The translations under genes were made by a program, and so were the position numbers. This document shows, one piece after another, positions 4,720 to 59,065 of a stretch of DNA of 64,000 nucleotides. The first letter of the stretch is position 1. Each line of letters starts with the position of its first letter. A model generated the notes under the pieces. It saw only the letters and a list, made by a program, of their open reading frames with translations. It ran no database searches and had not been told where the DNA came from. Origin of the DNA: a virus; the IMG/VR virus record IMGVR_UViG_3300047476_000792, positions 26,403 through 90,402 of that record; one strand, given 5' to 3'.

Positions 4720-4725
4720 TATTTA
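4720..4725 (-). promoter_or_regulatory. late promoter hexamer TAAATA
   Basis: On the minus strand TAAATA, 5 bases before the ATG of the terminase-like gene. Its first three bases are the TAA stop codon (4723-4725) of the upstream nuclease gene. Confidence 0.7.
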
Positions 4726-5190
4726 TTTTATATCTTTGAAGATCTCTTGGGATATTTTCTTATATTTTTCCCGCAAATCCTTTGGACAATTACCAATACG
4801 GAAGTGGATTATACCATTAAAGAAACTATCATCGAATAAGACTCCGTGGCGCATTTGTTCCAAGGTTTCCATATACGACATCGTCCATTTAGTTTCACAA
4901 CAATGTAAAATTGTACGTTTAAATATGTCTGGACCGTATTTTTTAAGAATCTCTTTCAAATCGTTTGAACTACCATAGTATTTTTTCCAATCAGATTCTT
5001 TCATTACTCGACGACTACGAGTTTTACCTTTAAGGGGTTTTAACTTAGTATTACTCCAGAATATTTTCTTTCCTAAGTATTTTGTCGGTTTATCTTTAGG
5101 ATAATCCTCGGGAATATTTACTATCTCTATAAGATATACAAATCCTAAATAATCATCTATATTTTCTGGAATATTTTCCCATTCGTTCAT
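4723..5190 (-). CDS. SegE-like GIY-YIG nuclease
   Basis: A 155-residue protein matching the GIY-YIG pattern: GFVYLIEI near the start, KYLGKK as the YIG-like strand, then a basic stretch (KGKTRSRRV), YYGSSNDL, and a helix with MSYMETLEQ that can supply the metal-binding Glu. This is the arrangement in phage SegE-like homing endonucleases. Here it is a late gene in a packed cassette beside a terminase-like ATPase, so besides homing it could supply a DNA-cutting function to that neighbour; this is inference. Its TAA stop forms part of the next late promoter. Confidence 0.7.
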   Translation of the reverse strand: MNEWENIPENIDDYLGFVYLIEIVNIPEDYPKDKPTKYLGKKIFWSNTKLKPLKGKTRSRRVMKESDWKKYYGSSNDLKEILKKYGPDIFKRTILHCCETKWTMSYMETLEQMRHGVLFDDSFFNGIIHFRIGNCPKDLREKYKKISQEIFKDIK

Positions 5191-16975: not shown

Positions 16976-17733
16976 TTGGAGTTGGTATAGTAACATATAA
17001 TCGTCCAGAGCGATTTAAGGAGGCGTTTGATGCAATTCAGAACCCCCTCATAGATAGATATTATCATGTCAAGGATGGTGGAAGCCCAAAATATAATAAT
17101 TATAAAGATTTGCACCAACTACCTGAAAATAAAGGAGTCGGAGTTTGTAAAAATATAATTATAGACAATCTTATAAACCAAGGATGTGAACATATTTTTG
17201 TGTTAGAAGATGATTGCCTTATAACTAATGAGGGGGTTTGGCGGTATTGTATAGATTTTTCCAAACACACAGGTTTATTACATTTTAATTGGAATAATTA
17301 TCGAGAAGAAGATAAAAACCATGTAAAAGTGATGTTTCCCGAGTTTGAGGCATTGATTTCATATAATGTAGAAGCTAACTTCTCATATTTTCACCGAGAT
17401 TTTCTAAAAGAGATTCGATTTGATGAAACCTATGTTAATGCATGGGAGCATGTTGATTTAGAATACCAAGGTGTTTTAAAGGGGTTTTCTCCCGCCTTTC
17501 GTATGTTCGTATCCCCGTTTCATTTAAGTCAGTTTATGAGGGTTAACGATGCTGGTAAATCGTCTATCGTAGGGTATCCTCTGCATAAAGAACGCATAGT
17601 AGAGGGATATAACTATTGGCTGACTAAATGGGGAAATCGAGTCACTGATATAGGACCGATTCCAATAGATAAATTTAAAGGCAAGATGCAAGAGATTACA
17701 AAAAAATATGCAAAACGAAATAACCCCTATTGA
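16972..17733 (+). CDS. family 2-like glycosyltransferase
   Basis: 253 residues. GVGIVTYNRPERFKEAFDAI at the start, ENKGVGVCKNIIIDN, and FVLEDDCLI as metal site; same architecture as the gene at 14531 (paralogue). The EAFDAI start is typical GT-A. Member of the sugar module between YopX and a small unknown gene. Confidence 0.78.
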   Translation: MIGVGIVTYNRPERFKEAFDAIQNPLIDRYYHVKDGGSPKYNNYKDLHQLPENKGVGVCKNIIIDNLINQGCEHIFVLEDDCLITNEGVWRYCIDFSKHTGLLHFNWNNYREEDKNHVKVMFPEFEALISYNVEANFSYFHRDFLKEIRFDETYVNAWEHVDLEYQGVLKGFSPAFRMFVSPFHLSQFMRVNDAGKSSIVGYPLHKERIVEGYNYWLTKWGNRVTDIGPIPIDKFKGKMQEITKKYAKRNNPY

Positions 17734-18091
17734 TATAAAAATGATCATTAAAAATACTGTCAGGAATAATGGTATGATCGTTTCGTGGAACGATATGTCC
17801 CATCCTGTTTGTCTATATCTTGATCATAATTTTAAAATGACAGTAGGAGAGGCGGAGTGCTTCCTTTGGAAAGTCAGGGACCAATCAATTCCCACACAAT
17901 ATCATCTATTAGAATGCGACCATGTATCTGAATTTATAGATAATTTAGATGTTATAGTTAAACGTAAATTATCAGAGGGGTATACTACATTTAAATATTA
18001 TTCATATGCTGATAATATGATCAGGGGATGTTTTTTTAAAGAACCTGAAATTCCAAAACAAATTATACAAGATATTAAAGCGTTCTACTAA
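17708..18091 (+). CDS. hypothetical protein, 127 aa
   Basis: Overlaps the end of the glycosyltransferase gene by 26 bases. Alpha/beta-looking with CLYLDHNFKM and VTVGEAECFLW-type strands. The first bases (AAAATATGCAAAACGA) are identical to those at the start of the following gene. Unknown function. Confidence 0.6.
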   Translation: MQNEITPIDIKMIIKNTVRNNGMIVSWNDMSHPVCLYLDHNFKMTVGEAECFLWKVRDQSIPTQYHLLECDHVSEFIDNLDVIVKRKLSEGYTTFKYYSYADNMIRGCFFKEPEIPKQIIQDIKAFY

Positions 18092-18101
18092 TATAGAAAA
18101 T

Positions 18102-18983
18102 ATGCAAAACGATAACACTCGTATCGAACTTGTTACAAATACCTTCGGAAAATATCATCGCCAAGATATTGCTGTGGATTCTTGGCGTCATTTAAAGAAG
18201 TTATTTCCTGGTAATATTAATTTAAACAACTTCCAATTTGAGGATGAACGCAATACCTTTGTAGATCACTATGATGATGTGGATACATCGTTTAGATTAA
18301 AGAATTCTAGTAAATCTTTGGTGAAGGGTTCCACTAAAAAGTTGCCACTAGTATCAGAAATAATATTTTCTGGTTTTAAATACGATCCTGATTATGTGTT
18401 ATTTACAAATAGCGATGTTATTTTAATGCCACATCTTATTGAATATATTTTAAAGGAACAACCCGATTGTATGGCAATATCTCGAATGGATATTGAACAT
18501 ATTGAATCGTTTGATAATATTTTACGTCAAGATGTTAAACCTGTGAGATATGAGATTGGCGGTTATGACGTTTTCGTTATGAAGAGGGGGTGGTTCCAAC
18601 TTAATAAAAAATATTTCTGGAGTAACTTCTTGTTAGGTGCCCCTGCATTTGATCCTGTTTTTGCTGGACTGATGGTGATGTTTGGAGATAAGTTTGAAAT
18701 GGGTAATGGGTTCCCACCATACGCTTTCCATATCTGGCACGGAACCGCATCAGTCGATACTCCTTCCCCTGAACGAGACTATAATTACAAGGTCTTTAAT
18801 AAAAATCCTCTATTTAAGATAGCGAATAATATAATATTTCATAATATCCAGTATAATTTATGTAAGAGAAAACCGTGGGGTAGATTCCTTATTCCCGATG
18901 AACAGGAACAGAACAGACAGAAGAAGTTCTTTAATGAGATGAATCTAAAGGACATGAATCAAATAAGATATATCACTGACTGA
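18102..18983 (+). CDS. glycosyltransferase-like protein (GT-A type) with invaded 3' end
   Basis: 293 residues. IELVTNTFGKYHRQDIAVDSW and DYVLFTNSDVILMPHL (a DxD-like SDV site) suggest a GT-A fold; IGGYDVFVMKRGWF and AFHIWHGT are typical of the acceptor half. The last 23 codons are repeated in diverged form 1 kb downstream, beyond the antisense homing endonuclease, showing that the 3' end was replaced or duplicated during its insertion. The stop codons of the two convergent genes abut as TGATCA (18981-18986). Confidence 0.6.
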   Translation: MQNDNTRIELVTNTFGKYHRQDIAVDSWRHLKKLFPGNINLNNFQFEDERNTFVDHYDDVDTSFRLKNSSKSLVKGSTKKLPLVSEIIFSGFKYDPDYVLFTNSDVILMPHLIEYILKEQPDCMAISRMDIEHIESFDNILRQDVKPVRYEIGGYDVFVMKRGWFQLNKKYFWSNFLLGAPAFDPVFAGLMVMFGDKFEMGNGFPPYAFHIWHGTASVDTPSPERDYNYKVFNKNPLFKIANNIIFHNIQYNLCKRKPWGRFLIPDEQEQNRQKKFFNEMNLKDMNQIRYITD

Positions 18984-19907
18984 TCACAATTCATTGAAAG
19001 AATATTTGGATTCTTTAATGGATTGGTGGTATCGTGATACTTTAGATTTGTATTGATTGTGTTTTCTTGTAAAACCTATAGACCTATTGTGTTGATATAT
19101 GTAGTCGTATAATGCCGTGACATGACCATTTTTATTTATTTCTATAACGGATGAATGACTATTATCTCTGTCTTTATTTTTATGTGTTCGATTAAATATT
19201 CTATATGATATTTTCAAAGAACCGAATAATTTTTCCACAGAAGACCAATCTTGATTTATATTAGAGCTTATTGAGAATTTACTTTTTCCACAGTGCGCAT
19301 CTCCGTCGAAGTATCCTCTCCAAAACATATAATGCAAATTTTCTGGTATATGGTTTAATATTTTTGATTGAGGCGCAGTAGATTTAATATGGTAATCATT
19401 TTCTTTTAAGAAGTTAATAATATCTATATTAGAGGTTCTTATAGTTAAGAGCTGTTTTCGACTACGAGCAGTCATAGGTGTTTTAGTCACAGACCAATCG
19501 CCAATACTCATAAAAACTGGAACAACTTCTTTAAGATCGTCCTCCGCCACTGATACAGATACTGTCCACCTATTTATAGTACCGTCGGCATATATCAGCC
19601 CTAGTATATATGCAACATTTTCATTTACATTTTTTATGTTTTCTATAGGAACTTTTATACCACCTCTCCCATTCATCATGGTATCTCTTGCCCTCTTTGC
19701 CTTTATGATGGGGCTTATAGACAATCCGAGATTTGCAGCATACCATGACACTAATTTTTGTGATATACCTAGAGCATCGGCACAGGGTCTAATTCCTAGC
19801 GATATATAATTATTTTTTAAAAATTCTCTAATTTCGTTTCTTCTTATTTTTGTATTTCTTTTTCGTATATTAGGTTCACTATTTATGTGCATAGCACTAC
19901 TTATCAT
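18984..19907 (-). CDS. LAGLIDADG homing endonuclease with N-terminal HTH
   Basis: 307 residues (an ATG at codon 6 is also possible). N-terminal part resembles a helix-turn-helix (ADALGISQKLVSWYAANLGL). Two LAGLIDADG motifs follow: ILGLIYADG (101-109) and FWRGYFDGD (about 195-203), so it can act as a monomer. It lies antisense within a sense-strand operon, flanked by two versions of the end of a glycosyltransferase gene. Free-standing homing endonucleases copy themselves into alleles that lack them. Confidence 0.88.
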   Translation of the reverse strand: MISSAMHINSEPNIRKRNTKIRRNEIREFLKNNYISLGIRPCADALGISQKLVSWYAANLGLSISPIIKAKRARDTMMNGRGGIKVPIENIKNVNENVAYILGLIYADGTINRWTVSVSVAEDDLKEVVPVFMSIGDWSVTKTPMTARSRKQLLTIRTSNIDIINFLKENDYHIKSTAPQSKILNHIPENLHYMFWRGYFDGDAHCGKSKFSISSNINQDWSSVEKLFGSLKISYRIFNRTHKNKDRDNSHSSVIEINKNGHVTALYDYIYQHNRSIGFTRKHNQYKSKVSRYHQSIKESKYSFNEL

Positions 19908-19911
19908 TTTT

Positions 19912-19983
19912 TCGAAGATTCAAGAAGATTTCTTTAGAGAAATGAATATATGTGAGTTAAATAAGATTCAATATGTCGAATAA
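19912..19983 (+). pseudogene. orphaned 3' end of a glycosyltransferase gene
   Basis: In frame this encodes SKIQEDFFREMNICELNKIQ and then YVE stop, clearly related to the end of the gene at 18102 (RQKKFFNEMN.L..MNQIRY). It has no start of its own. Its TAA overlaps the next gene (ATG 19973) in the manner usual in this operon, so it is most likely the original end of the gene that preceded 19973 before the homing endonuclease arrived. Confidence 0.75.
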
Positions 19984-20209
19984 TACAGAAGAATTATCCA
20001 CAATCGATTTATCGTTGGTCGAGTATTTTCTTAAAAAATTTACTTTAAATTGTAAAAAGGGATTTTCAAGAGAAATATTAGAAAAAGATATTAAACAATT
20101 ACAGATGATTATAGATTCATTTATAATATATAATTTAATTCGAAATGGACAGATACAGGAGTTAAATGATCAAAATTCGGATGAAATATTGAAATATTTC
20201 GGTGATTGA
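19973..20209 (+). CDS. hypothetical protein, 78 aa
   Basis: Small, mostly helical acidic/Leu-rich protein (MSNNTEELSTIDLSLVEYFL...). Start overlaps the orphaned gene tail. No family recognised; likely co-transcribed with the GT9-like gene that follows. Confidence 0.55.
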   Translation: MSNNTEELSTIDLSLVEYFLKKFTLNCKKGFSREILEKDIKQLQMIIDSFIIYNLIRNGQIQELNDQNSDEILKYFGD

Positions 20210-20214
20210 TTGAC

Positions 20215-20934
20215 ATGAAGAGATTAGGAATAATTCAACCAGGAAAGATAGGAGACATAATCATATGTCTCCCCATTGCTAAATGGTATTATGATCGTGG
20301 TTATGAAATTATATGGCCCGTTGATCGGAATATTATAGATAATTTTGTCGATTATATAGAATATGTTACATTCATACCCATCGATTTCGACTGTAGAGTG
20401 GCTAATCAAGTATGCTTTAATAACATGTGTAATAAAATACTTGATTTATCATTTACCATACCCGGAGCCAGCACATACAATTCTGATAATTATTTAAAAC
20501 AGGACATCTATTCATTTGACGAATATAAATATTTTCTTGCAGATGTTCCTTTTGAGGAAAAATGGAATCTAAATCTTAAAAGGAATATGGATAAAGAACT
20601 TTCATTGCAAAAAAAGTTGAATATTCGAGAGCAGTATGTGATCATTCAGGAAAATTCTTCAGATTACGTTAGAAAAGTACAGTGGGAAAATGATCAGTTC
20701 AGAAGAATCGATTTCTCTATTCTGTCTACTAGTGTTTTTGATTGGCTTTCGGTATTAGAGAAAGCCTCCCAGCATATCTTAATTGAAAGCTGTCTAGTTA
20801 ATTTGGTTGACCAATTGAATATTACAGTCGATAAACATACTCTGTTGCTAAAACATGGGTATTACGGAAGACCATTAGTTGATGAAAGACTTAGAGGTAT
20901 ACCAGTTTTTAGAAAAGAGTGGGTAAGAATATGA
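20215..20934 (+). CDS. GT9/heptosyltransferase-like protein
   Basis: 239 residues from ATG 20215. The N-terminus LGIIQPGKIGDIIICLPIAKW matches the ADP-heptose:LPS heptosyltransferase family (GxIGD...LP.A), a GT-B fold. VIIQENSSDY and ILIESCLVNL agree with the nucleotide-binding half, though the protein is shorter than usual (about 300-350) and conserved motifs are weak. Possible role in adding or altering sugars within the sugar module. Confidence 0.6.
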   Translation: MKRLGIIQPGKIGDIIICLPIAKWYYDRGYEIIWPVDRNIIDNFVDYIEYVTFIPIDFDCRVANQVCFNNMCNKILDLSFTIPGASTYNSDNYLKQDIYSFDEYKYFLADVPFEEKWNLNLKRNMDKELSLQKKLNIREQYVIIQENSSDYVRKVQWENDQFRRIDFSILSTSVFDWLSVLEKASQHILIESCLVNLVDQLNITVDKHTLLLKHGYYGRPLVDERLRGIPVFRKEWVRI

Positions 20935-34346: not shown

Positions 34347-35420
34347 ATGGCTGATATTAAAAACGCATTACTTGCGAAATTCAAACAGAACTCAACTATT
34401 AAAGAATCATCAATTCTTTCAAATTCTAAATTTTTCAAAGAGAAAAAGTATATCGATACCGGAATCCCCGCACTAAATGTTGCGCTATCTGGCAGATTAG
34501 ATGGTGGTATGAGTTCAGGGCTTACTATGTGGGCAGCACCTTCTCGACACTTTAAAACGGCATTTACCCTAGTTATGACTAGGGCATACTTGGATCACTT
34601 TAAAGATTCTATTTCTCTGTTCTATGATTCAGAATTTGGAACACCTGAATCTTATTTTGATGCATTTGGCATTGATAAAGAACGTGTGTTACATACCCCG
34701 ATCACTAATATCGAAGAATTAAAATTTGATATTATGAAACAATTGGAGGCTATTCAACGTGGTGAGAAGGTTATTGGTGTTATCGACTCTGTTGGAAATC
34801 TTGCAAGTAAAAAAGAAGTAGAAGATGCCCTAGAAGGGAACTCTGCTGCGGACATGACCCGTGCAAAACAATTAAAATCTCTCTGGAGAATGGTAACTCC
34901 ACATCTAACTCTTAAAGATATTCCACTGATAGTTGTAAATCATGTTTATGATGAACAAAAACTTCACGGAAGACAAATCATGGGTGGTGGACAAGGTGGT
35001 ATGTTATCATCTGATAACGTGTTCTTCGTTTCTCGTTCACAAGAAAAGGATGGTGATGAATTGATTGGTTACAACTTCAACATCATAGTCGAAAAAAGCC
35101 GATCTGTCAAGGAAAGATCACGAATTCCTATTACTGTCACCTTTGATGGTGGTATTAGTAAATGGAGCGGTTTACTAGATATGGCATTAGAGTCTAAGCA
35201 CGTCGTTAAACCAAAAATGGGATGGTATAGTCGTGTTATAAATGGTGTCACCGAAGAAAAGCTCTATCGTATGAAAAATACTTTTTCAGAAGAATTTTGG
35301 GGAGATATTCTGAAAGAAGAATCATTCAAGGAATGGGTAAAAGATACCTATTCTATTAGTCAGGTTGATATGTTATCCGTGGACCGTGATACAGACGAGG
35401 AGGAAGAAACAGAAGATTAA
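34347..35420 (+). CDS. uvsX: UvsX RecA-like recombinase
   Basis: 357 residues. The match to T4 UvsX is clear along the protein: SNSKFFKEK, IPALNVALSG, Walker A APSRHFKT (64-71), SLFYDSEFGTP, RGEKVIGVIDSVGNLASKKE, DMTRAKQLKSLWRMVTP, VVNHVYDE, MGGGQGGM, VVKPKMGWYSR. The protein coats single strands and carries out strand exchange in recombination-dependent replication. The end is acidic (DTDEEEETED), as in T4. The Walker A carries RHFKT where T4 has KSFKS. Confidence 0.95.
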   Translation: MADIKNALLAKFKQNSTIKESSILSNSKFFKEKKYIDTGIPALNVALSGRLDGGMSSGLTMWAAPSRHFKTAFTLVMTRAYLDHFKDSISLFYDSEFGTPESYFDAFGIDKERVLHTPITNIEELKFDIMKQLEAIQRGEKVIGVIDSVGNLASKKEVEDALEGNSAADMTRAKQLKSLWRMVTPHLTLKDIPLIVVNHVYDEQKLHGRQIMGGGQGGMLSSDNVFFVSRSQEKDGDELIGYNFNIIVEKSRSVKERSRIPITVTFDGGISKWSGLLDMALESKHVVKPKMGWYSRVINGVTEEKLYRMKNTFSEEFWGDILKEESFKEWVKDTYSISQVDMLSVDRDTDEEEETED

Positions 35421-56709: not shown

Positions 56710-57144
56710 CTTGTAATGTTTAGGTTCGAGGAATTGAAAATCTGTTTTACCTACGGAGCCTATTTTAGAAACACCATTCTTTAATGTATATTTAACCTCC
56801 ATATTTCCTTGTTTAGAGTTTACTCTTGCTCCTGGCTTTTTAGGGTTCACACCTTTTATTCTTAAATGACCTCCTAGACCTTTTGCAATACCTGCCTGTG
56901 CATGATCTTTTTGGGATTTATTCTGTCCCCTAGCACCTTTTCCATCCCAATAATTTCCTATATATTGTTGATTTCCTAACTTGGTTTTTTGCGAGTCTGA
57001 ATGATTATTTAGGGAGCGTACCTGTCTAACACCCGACTTGGGAAACATGGTATCTGCCCAATAGCGCGACTCTCTACGTTTGGATTTCGCAGTTGTATAT
57101 TCACGAATAAGAGATTCACAAAATTGATCAAATTCAGGGGTCAT
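56707..57144 (-). CDS. hypothetical late protein, 145 aa
   Basis: N-terminus TPEFDQFCESLIREY fits the short motif shared with the late proteins at 5820 and 59721. The rest is basic and Gly/Lys/Gln-rich (YWDGKGARGQNKSQKDHAQ), with a beta-like end (MEVKYTLKNGVSKIG). Its ATG overlaps the opposite-strand ATG of gp61 as CATG (57142-57145). Function unknown; late virion protein likely. Confidence 0.6.
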   Translation of the reverse strand: MTPEFDQFCESLIREYTTAKSKRRESRYWADTMFPKSGVRQVRSLNNHSDSQKTKLGNQQYIGNYWDGKGARGQNKSQKDHAQAGIAKGLGGHLRIKGVNPKKPGARVNSKQGNMEVKYTLKNGVSKIGSVGKTDFQFLEPKHYK

Positions 57145-59065
57145 GTATTTACTTATTGAAAAATGTGGGCTTACTCGCTATATTGTATGGATGGAATTAC
57201 CCCAAGCATATTTGATAAATAAATTCAATTACTACTCTGCTTCGATAAGAGAAACTTCTTCTTATTTGAATGGTAGTTGCCCTATTTGCAAAGAGGGGGA
57301 TAGTTGGGGTAAAAAGAGGCGGCTTTTTTATTTTAAAAATGATGATTATTTATACTGCCATAACTGTTTCTCTGGAGATGTTAAAATATTAACACTGGAG
57401 TATGGCCCTATAGAATTTAGAAAAATAAAAGATTTATTGGTTACTATAAGATGTAAGGATGGTGTTTGGAGAAAAAGAAAGATATTAAGCTATGGACACC
57501 AAAACGTGTTCGAATATCAATTTGGTAATCTAGGATTTTCAAATAAAAGATATACTATAAAAGCTACAGAGAATCATAAATGGTTTATAAAAAGAGATAA
57601 TAAAAGAAGAAAGTATGATACTACTACTGAATTAAAACTAGGCGATAGATTAGATACTACACCAACTGTTGAAGAGAGAGATATTATGGGTATTGTTCAT
57701 GGTATTATTTTTGGTGATGGAACTTATAGAAAATATAAAGGAGAAAAACGATATGCTATTATCAGAGTATGTAAGCAAGATAGCCGAAAAGACACAATAT
57801 TAGAAATATTGCGAATGGCGGGGTATAAAGTAACTTATCCTAAAAACTTAAAAGGGGATGCGTATGTTAATATAGGTCGTGTCGAACATTTAAAAGATAT
57901 TCCAAATACAATAAATCCAAGTTATATTTCCGGGTTCATTTATGGATTATGGTTGACAGATGGATACGCTAATAATCTATATGAAATAGCTACAGTTCGG
58001 TCAGATTTAGTCGAATGGATAACTACATTTGCAGCAATGGGGGGATATAGAATAGTAAATAATATATATCCCCGCACAAGAAAAAACTGTTATGCTAATG
58101 CTAAACCTATATATCGTATCAAATTGAAAACAAATTCAGATGTTATTCTTAGAAGTAAGAAGTTTATAGGTTCTGAAGAAGTTTTTTGTTTAGAAGAGCC
58201 GATTACTGGTGGGTTTTATTTGGATGATAATATTCTTACAGGAAATTGCGCCCGTTCATGGACTCCGTATTTTTGGATAAAGGAAGTTACGGGATTAACT
58301 TTTAAAGAAATATTCACAGAGTTAAAGGATTATGACTATGATTCTAAATATAAACTAATTATAGATAAAGCTGAAGAACGTGTTTTTGATTTGCCAACTC
58401 TTCCAGGAGAATGTGTAAACTTAAAAGATTCATTACAAATAGAATATTTTAAGAATTATCCAGTTGTTAATATTGCATTGGAGGTTTGTAACGAGAGACG
58501 TTTATTTTCTGCACTGAACGCTCCAAAGACTTATTATGTATGTCTAAATGATAAGTTTCATGGAAATAGATTAATCATTCCTTTTTATAATAATCATGGA
58601 AAAATAGAAAGTTATATTTCCCGAAAACTTTTAGATTCAGATAGTAAAGCGAAGTATTTGATAAAATTTGGATCAAATAAACCCATCTTTAATTTAGACA
58701 AAATTGATGAAAATTTCCCATATATATTCTTATTTGAGGGACAGATAGATTGTATGTTTGTTAGAAATGGCGTATCTGTAGCGGGGACACGACTGACTGA
58801 ATCACAAGAAGAGACATTGTTACGATTATTTCCATTTCATCAACTGATATGGGTATTAGATAATTATACACTAGAAGGTGATGAAGTTAGGAAAATAATC
58901 GAAGATAAATTAAAAAACAATCAGACTGTCTTTTTATTTGAGAATGAATTCAGTGAATTTAAAGATTTTAATGATTATTGTGTAGAAAAAAAGCAGGACC
59001 AGATAGACCCTGCTTTAGTTTTGCAACATTCTTATAAAGGCTCTGCGGGCCTTGTGAGACTATAA
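57143..59065 (+). CDS. 61: gp61-like DNA primase interrupted by an intein
   Basis: 640 codons; removal of a 294-residue intein leaves 346, matching T4 gp61 (342). Zinc finger CPIC (46-49) and YCHNC, the last Cys of which is the residue after the intein. Primase/TOPRIM part: RLIIPFYNNHGKIESYISR, FLFEGQIDCMFVRNGVSVAG, LIWVLDNY. It makes RNA primers with gp41. ATG 57191 is an alternative start. In T4 61 lies beside 41; here it is 20 kb away among tail genes on the opposite strand. Confidence 0.9.
   Translation: MYLLIEKCGLTRYIVWMELPQAYLINKFNYYSASIRETSSYLNGSCPICKEGDSWGKKRRLFYFKNDDYLYCHNCFSGDVKILTLEYGPIEFRKIKDLLVTIRCKDGVWRKRKILSYGHQNVFEYQFGNLGFSNKRYTIKATENHKWFIKRDNKRRKYDTTTELKLGDRLDTTPTVEERDIMGIVHGIIFGDGTYRKYKGEKRYAIIRVCKQDSRKDTILEILRMAGYKVTYPKNLKGDAYVNIGRVEHLKDIPNTINPSYISGFIYGLWLTDGYANNLYEIATVRSDLVEWITTFAAMGGYRIVNNIYPRTRKNCYANAKPIYRIKLKTNSDVILRSKKFIGSEEVFCLEEPITGGFYLDDNILTGNCARSWTPYFWIKEVTGLTFKEIFTELKDYDYDSKYKLIIDKAEERVFDLPTLPGECVNLKDSLQIEYFKNYPVVNIALEVCNERRLFSALNAPKTYYVCLNDKFHGNRLIIPFYNNHGKIESYISRKLLDSDSKAKYLIKFGSNKPIFNLDKIDENFPYIFLFEGQIDCMFVRNGVSVAGTRLTESQEETLLRLFPFHQLIWVLDNYTLEGDEVRKIIEDKLKNNQTVFLFENEFSEFKDFNDYCVEKKQDQIDPALVLQHSYKGSAGLVRL
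57150..57155 (-). promoter_or_regulatory. late promoter hexamer TAAGTA
   Basis: Minus strand AATAAGTAAATACATG: TAAGTA is 5 bases before ATG 57144; an overlapping TAAATA is only 1 base away and less likely. It lies inside the divergent gp61 frame. Confidence 0.5.
57365..58246 (+). mobile_element. intein with LAGLIDADG homing endonuclease
   Basis: Residues 75-368 of the frame. Begins at Cys1 in CFSGDVKILT, has the block B TENHKWF, two LAGLIDADG motifs (GIVHGIIFGDG about 183-193; ISGFIYGLWLTDG about 262-274) and ends EVFCLEEP ... NILTGN, followed by Cys. The residue before the terminal Asn is Gly instead of the common His. It interrupts a zinc-ligand position of the primase, a conserved and costly site to lose. 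Confidence 0.9.

Follow-up and report, generated by a model that had tools for sequence, protein, structure and literature searches.

Free-standing homing endonuclease genes (HEGs) of phages are usually described as intergenic, or as residents of introns and inteins, thus avoiding damage. A third way to avoid damage, namely a replacement gene end, is known in fungal mitochondria. In Allomyces (atp6) and in Glomus sp. 229456 (atp6, atp9, cox2 and nad3), an ORF of the LAGLIDADG or GIY-YIG type brings a foreign C-terminus to the gene and the native one is left behind, the two ends of the fungal atp6 gene sharing 63.5% nucleotide identity (PMC3630166). For T4-type phages, the available part of a review of mobile elements (PMC2988022) indicates that some free-standing HEGs overlap the upstream ORF. 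It also gives the established homing pathway, in which the HEG-free allele is cleaved and repaired from the HEG-carrying genome, with co-conversion of the flanks. The words 'LAGLIDADG' and 'duplicat' do not occur in the review, and no substitute gene end is mentioned in the same part of it. In the available part of a study of ICP1 and other phages, HEGs border exchanged genes, and no doubled gene ends are seen at these exchange units (PMC10448857). A targeted literature search, which cannot prove novelty, returned no phage precedent for a HEG with a substitute gene end.

The window analysed here, a stretch of 64,000 nucleotides, is part of a 90.4-kb IMG/VR virus record of an uncultured T4-like phage, and encodes a UvsX-like recombinase at 34347 (phrog_97, 5.6e-87). 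An antisense gene block contains a SegE-like GIY-YIG endonuclease gene (4723-5190, minus strand; Pfam SegE_GIY-YIG, 2.5e-28), and a Toprim protein (57143-59065; Toprim_2) harbours an intein-like insertion of about 270 aa, which begins with CFSGDVKILT and ends with LDDNILTGNC. The region from 14 to 24 kb is a tightly packed plus-strand gene cluster with overlapping gene ends, several of its genes being glycosyltransferase-like. The features of the locus of interest are as follows:

18102..18911, plus strand: body of the host gene, a predicted GT-A-fold glycosyltransferase of 293 aa in all, with 51-60% identity to endonuclease-free orthologues
18912..18983, plus strand: putative substitute 3' end (tail 1), NRQKKFFNEMNLKDMNQIRYITD and stop, which completes the host gene
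18984..19907, minus strand: LAGLIDADG homing endonuclease gene, 307 aa, with LAGLIDADG_3 and phrog_4645 matches
19915..19983, plus strand: orphan segment, which probably represents the native host-gene 3' end, displaced, KIQEDFFREMNICELNKIQYVE and stop, with 9/9 invariant columns
18912..19914, no strand assigned: putative inserted element of 1003 nt (substitute end plus HEG), removal of which leaves an uninterrupted 292-aa ORF
19973..20209, plus strand: 78-aa gene of unknown function, the start of which overlaps the end of the orphan
20206..20934, plus strand: g20206, the next conserved gene, downstream of the 78-aa gene

No convincing family match was found for the host gene in Pfam or PHROG, and searches of named phages and of bacterial genomes gave no relatives. 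An AlphaFold2 model of the protein (pLDDT 92.8), built on 17 relatives, has GT-A glycosyltransferases as Foldseek matches (GalNAc-T2, TarS and B4GalT1), which points to the GT-A fold. In this model, the helix 269-280 is partly derived from the putative substitute end, and confidence is low for the final 13 residues. At the other extremity of the gene, a 31-nt direct repeat (81%) at 17703-17733 and 18097-18127 corresponds to the starts of genes 17708 and 18102. The relative L101 is devoid of gene 17708, and there the same words mark the start of the host gene, within the end of the upstream gene. An insertion of gene 17708 between duplicated 31-nt starts was considered and dropped, since a gene of weak similarity occupies this position in L136.

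The host gene (18102-18983) terminates with RQKKFFNEMNLKDMNQIRYITD, and its stop codon directly adjoins that of the minus-strand LAGLIDADG ORF (TGA/TCA). The orphan is the open segment just beyond the start of this ORF, and overlaps the ATG of the next gene (19973) by 11 nt. That two versions of one gene end flank an antisense LAGLIDADG gene had been noticed in a sequence-only reading of the window, and its coordinates and peptides proved correct. With a profile built from seven endonuclease-free relatives, the orphan scores 51.3 and the host gene's own end 51.0, compared with 23.0 for the next best stretch of the 64 kb in six frames; this score is not attained when the orphan is shuffled 100,000 times. 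Direct comparison of tail 1 with the orphan gives a BLOSUM62 score of 52, versus 37 for the best other stretch in the six frames of the 64 kb, and the flanking-end test gives 58 versus a maximum of 54 in 40 shuffles. The source is a metagenomic contig, and an assembly chimera might thus be invoked. However, 10.9 kb of sequence, whole arrangement included, recur at 100% identity in another IMG/VR record (3300043429_000521), which makes a single-assembly artefact an unlikely source of the doubled end. The gene order is otherwise the same as in relatives, and a chimera can be given next to no weight.

The intact ORF lying between the two ends displays the domain and the two motifs of a monomeric LAGLIDADG homing endonuclease, and is predicted to encode a cleaving enzyme. 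It matches Pfam LAGLIDADG_3 (PF14528; 5.6e-7, 30.2 bits against a cut-off of 22.5) as well as the phrog_4645 endonuclease (3.4e-20), and its two LAGLIDADG motifs, ILGLIYADG and FWRGYFDGD, contain acidic residues. A low-confidence structural model (mean pLDDT 50) comprises three predicted N-terminal helices and two helix/strand repeats. Endonucleases of phrog_4645 are confined to this phage among 40 related virus records. No relative was detected at 1e-5 in annotated phages, with distant ones only at E up to 1, and a profile search of viral contigs returned no phage beyond the window's own. Several of the distant relatives sit between split polymerase exons, and LAGLIDADG HEGs are often borne by introns or inteins. 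One may thus ask whether the HEG is held in a group I intron or an intein, the upstream 'end' being a readthrough into the intron. This looks most improbable, since the HEG is antisense to the host gene and does not qualify as intron- or intein-borne, a search of 17600-20700 for intron RNA found nothing in Rfam, even at E up to 1, and readthrough into an intron would not code for a homologous C-terminus.

A second LAGLIDADG endonuclease of the same phage, encoded outside the window (G000:C1:3561-4445, locus L127), is 34% identical to the window enzyme and has a C-terminal AP2 domain. The window enzyme is devoid of this domain and stops where it would begin (SKYRGVSF / SKYSFNEL). At this second locus, there is no doubled end, and no relative shows an empty site. 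The same locus encodes a protein (L127:2255-3289, G000, also outside the window) that combines an RNA ligase with an N-terminal HNH domain (RNA_ligase 1.6e-33, HNH 7.3e-6).

Endonuclease-free orthologues of the host gene were located through the next gene, orthologue alignment and a DNA pattern; no such relative exceeds 60% amino acid identity to the window in the data. A comparison across these relatives, suggested along with the sequence-only reading, gives a consistent picture: all nine close orthologues (L100-L106, L131 and L136) are single copy, with one such end and no HEG. Most of their ends resemble IQKTFFDIMNIHTSNQIKYVE and stop, that of L106 being shorter and more diverged. When 18102-18911 is joined to 19915-19983, an in-frame 292-aa ORF is obtained, which aligns to the relatives without a gap and thus looks like the empty site; the left boundary of tail 1 (18912..18983) is deduced from this gap-free join. 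The host-gene orthologue is overlapped directly by g20206 (ATGA) in four endonuclease-free relatives and closely followed by it in L106, another gene coming next in others. The overlap of the orphan stop with the next gene had been called normal for this operon. This holds for the overlap as such, but in relatives the partner in the ATGA overlap is g20206 or another gene, and no relative of the 78-aa gene (19973-20209) was detected in any other phage.

The same relatives bear on the other origin that had been proposed, in which one of two tandem paralogues was consumed. The HEG would have entered between the two copies, the downstream one being deleted save its last 22 codons, and the end of the intact gene would be native. 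Such a tandem pair does exist right before g20206 in L111, and glycosyltransferase clusters in these phages undergo gene shuffling. However, the L111 copies are 32% identical and hence ancient, and agreement of their tails with the orphan is limited to 5/21 and 4/21 positions, whereas single-copy orthologues whose tail is full length reach 9-12/21; the L111 copies are thus not the source of the window tails. Moreover, all nine close orthologues are single copy, no second copy of the host gene is present in the whole phage record, and the deletion would have to spare just the end, beginning a few nucleotides from the HEG start codon. This origin is thus considered unlikely.

The two ends of the window share 9/21 residues and 37/63 nt (59% nucleotide identity), and each of them shares 9-12/21 residues and 34-42/63 nt with the close relatives. 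Tail 1 and the orphan are thus no closer to each other than to these relatives, which speaks against a recent local duplication and argues for an imported end. A local duplication of the last ~70 nt, followed by entry of the HEG between the copies and by their divergence, would be the simplest source of two homologous ends. It is nevertheless disfavoured, and its probability appears very low, because the tails are as distant mutually as from other phages, and because the supposedly free orphan retained all nine constrained residues along with its open frame, which would demand complete divergence with no decay. Of the nine columns invariant in seven endonuclease-free relatives, tail 1 keeps eight and the orphan all, which suggests that both were probably working gene ends until recently. 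Further insight into their polarity comes from eight relatives. The identity of the orphan to them tracks that of the gene body (rho 0.96, a value reached by 0.8% of body stretches), whereas that of tail 1 does not (rho -0.12, with 10% of body stretches that low), these fractions being descriptive since the stretches overlap and the sequences are related. The two tails have equal profile scores, and maximum-likelihood placement, with 21 residues for each, gives neither of them a definite position. On the basis of the two rho values, the orphan is likely but not proven to be the native end, and tail 1 the imported one, a conclusion that rests on 21 residues.

A total of 22 LAGLIDADG loci were scanned for homologous protein ends on both flanks. 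Two of them gave a signal above control, namely the window locus and that of Streptomyces phage Jada (MZ820094.1; flanking-end score of 93 versus a shuffle maximum of 55), with no doubled ends at the other 20. The Jada locus, at gene 203/204 of this cultured phage, has its HEG on the host-gene strand. Its left flank corresponds to gene 204 of the HEG-free phage Gilson, a NADAR-family gene (Pfam 1.2e-25), the 26 nt that lead to the junction being identical. Ahead of the HEG comes an end that matches the native one at 15/17 residues but at only 35/54 nt: ten of the 12 degenerate shared codons are changed, and the stop codon too. Behind the HEG lies an end that agrees with the native one of Gilson at 54/54 nt and likewise shows the ATGA overlap with the next gene. 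The substitute end is an outlier to all relatives examined (35-36/54 nt), which share 45-54/54 nt among themselves. The native and imported ends of Jada can thus be identified from the nucleotide sequence, and this phage shows the arrangement much more clearly than the window does. A later deletion across a 10-nt repeat, AAGCTCGGTG, removed the body of the Jada NADAR gene and fused the end to a neighbour gene. In Forrest (L150, Jada being L147), neither the NADAR gene nor the HEG is present, and much of the neighbouring sequence is missing.

Jada also weighs against tandem paralogues as the source of the window ends, since the same architecture demonstrably has another origin there. The proposal that a replacement 3' end was delivered with the endonuclease, the native one being displaced, which had been the first alternative of the sequence-only reading, is thus the best supported, in view of the single-copy endonuclease-free relatives, the Jada architecture and the fungal precedent (PMC3630166). 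It had also been suggested that some organelle homing elements are comparable, and the fungal mitochondrial cases provide this precedent. As in Allomyces and Glomus, the endonuclease gene lies towards the 3' end of a coding sequence, which would be completed by the inserted C-terminus, the native C-terminus being displaced downstream but still recognisable. Two homologous C-termini surround the endonuclease ORF, and element-free relatives have a single uninterrupted gene. The ends have diverged to a similar extent in nucleotides (63.5% identity for atp6, 59% in the window and 65% in Jada), and in Jada the downstream end is native by nucleotide identity (54/54 versus 35/54).

The differences are that the present cases are found in phages and not in organelles, that the window HEG is antisense, some Glomus inserts being fused in frame or co-transcribed with the gene, and that the host genes encode a putative glycosyltransferase (window) and a NADAR protein (Jada) instead of respiratory components. 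The two phage loci share a substitute gene end, a LAGLIDADG HEG and a native end that overlaps the next gene, the substitute and native ends of the window being putative. Jada differs from the window by its same-strand HEG, by a protein end that is almost unchanged but recoded, and by the later deletion of the gene body. The window HEG resembles the seg and mob genes, as far as they are covered in the available part of PMC2988022, in that it stands alone between genes of a T4-like phage. In contrast to these GIY-YIG and HNH enzymes, it belongs to the LAGLIDADG type, and is thus not a seg or mob element. It also recalls, within the part of PMC10448857 available, the exchange units of ICP1 and other phages, in which HEGs stand at the borders of exchanged genes.

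Taken together, it is quite probable that a free-standing LAGLIDADG HEG invaded the 3' end of the single-copy glycosyltransferase gene, carrying a substitute end from a diverged homologue. The HEG would have arrived with a copy of the last ~22 codons from this homologue. The host gene would be restored as the body 18102-18911 followed by the new end 18912-18983, with the HEG antisense right behind, and the native end 19915-19983 would stay as a remnant behind the HEG. The enzyme would cut the uninterrupted 3' region of endonuclease-free phages, and repair of the break off the endonuclease-carrying genome would copy in both the substitute end and the HEG. That the native 3' end is cleaved, that the element is transferred and that the carrier is immune are deduced here from the established homing pathway, as given in the available part of PMC2988022. 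With a new end of different nucleotide sequence, and a native end deprived of its left neighbour, neither flank would have the full target; the substitution would thus have destroyed the target site, and the carrier would be immune, with an intact host protein. Such an element may be viewed as a natural 'home-and-rescue' element, a likening of our own; a replacement gene end also resembles engineered recoded gene drives.

Beyond the window, it seems reasonably likely that phages carry a class of such 'home-and-rescue' HEGs, in which a recoded substitute end lets the HEG hit coding sequence yet spares the host gene, with at least two origins (the window phage and Jada) that differ in enzymes, strands and host genes. 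Since isolates exist of Jada and of HEG-free relatives, Gilson among them, cleavage, homing and immunity become directly testable. The presence of such elements in phages would mean that HEGs can directly target conserved coding ends. They may also spread foreign C-termini between phages, giving rise to hybrid genes, while the short orphan ends left behind would be missed by annotation.
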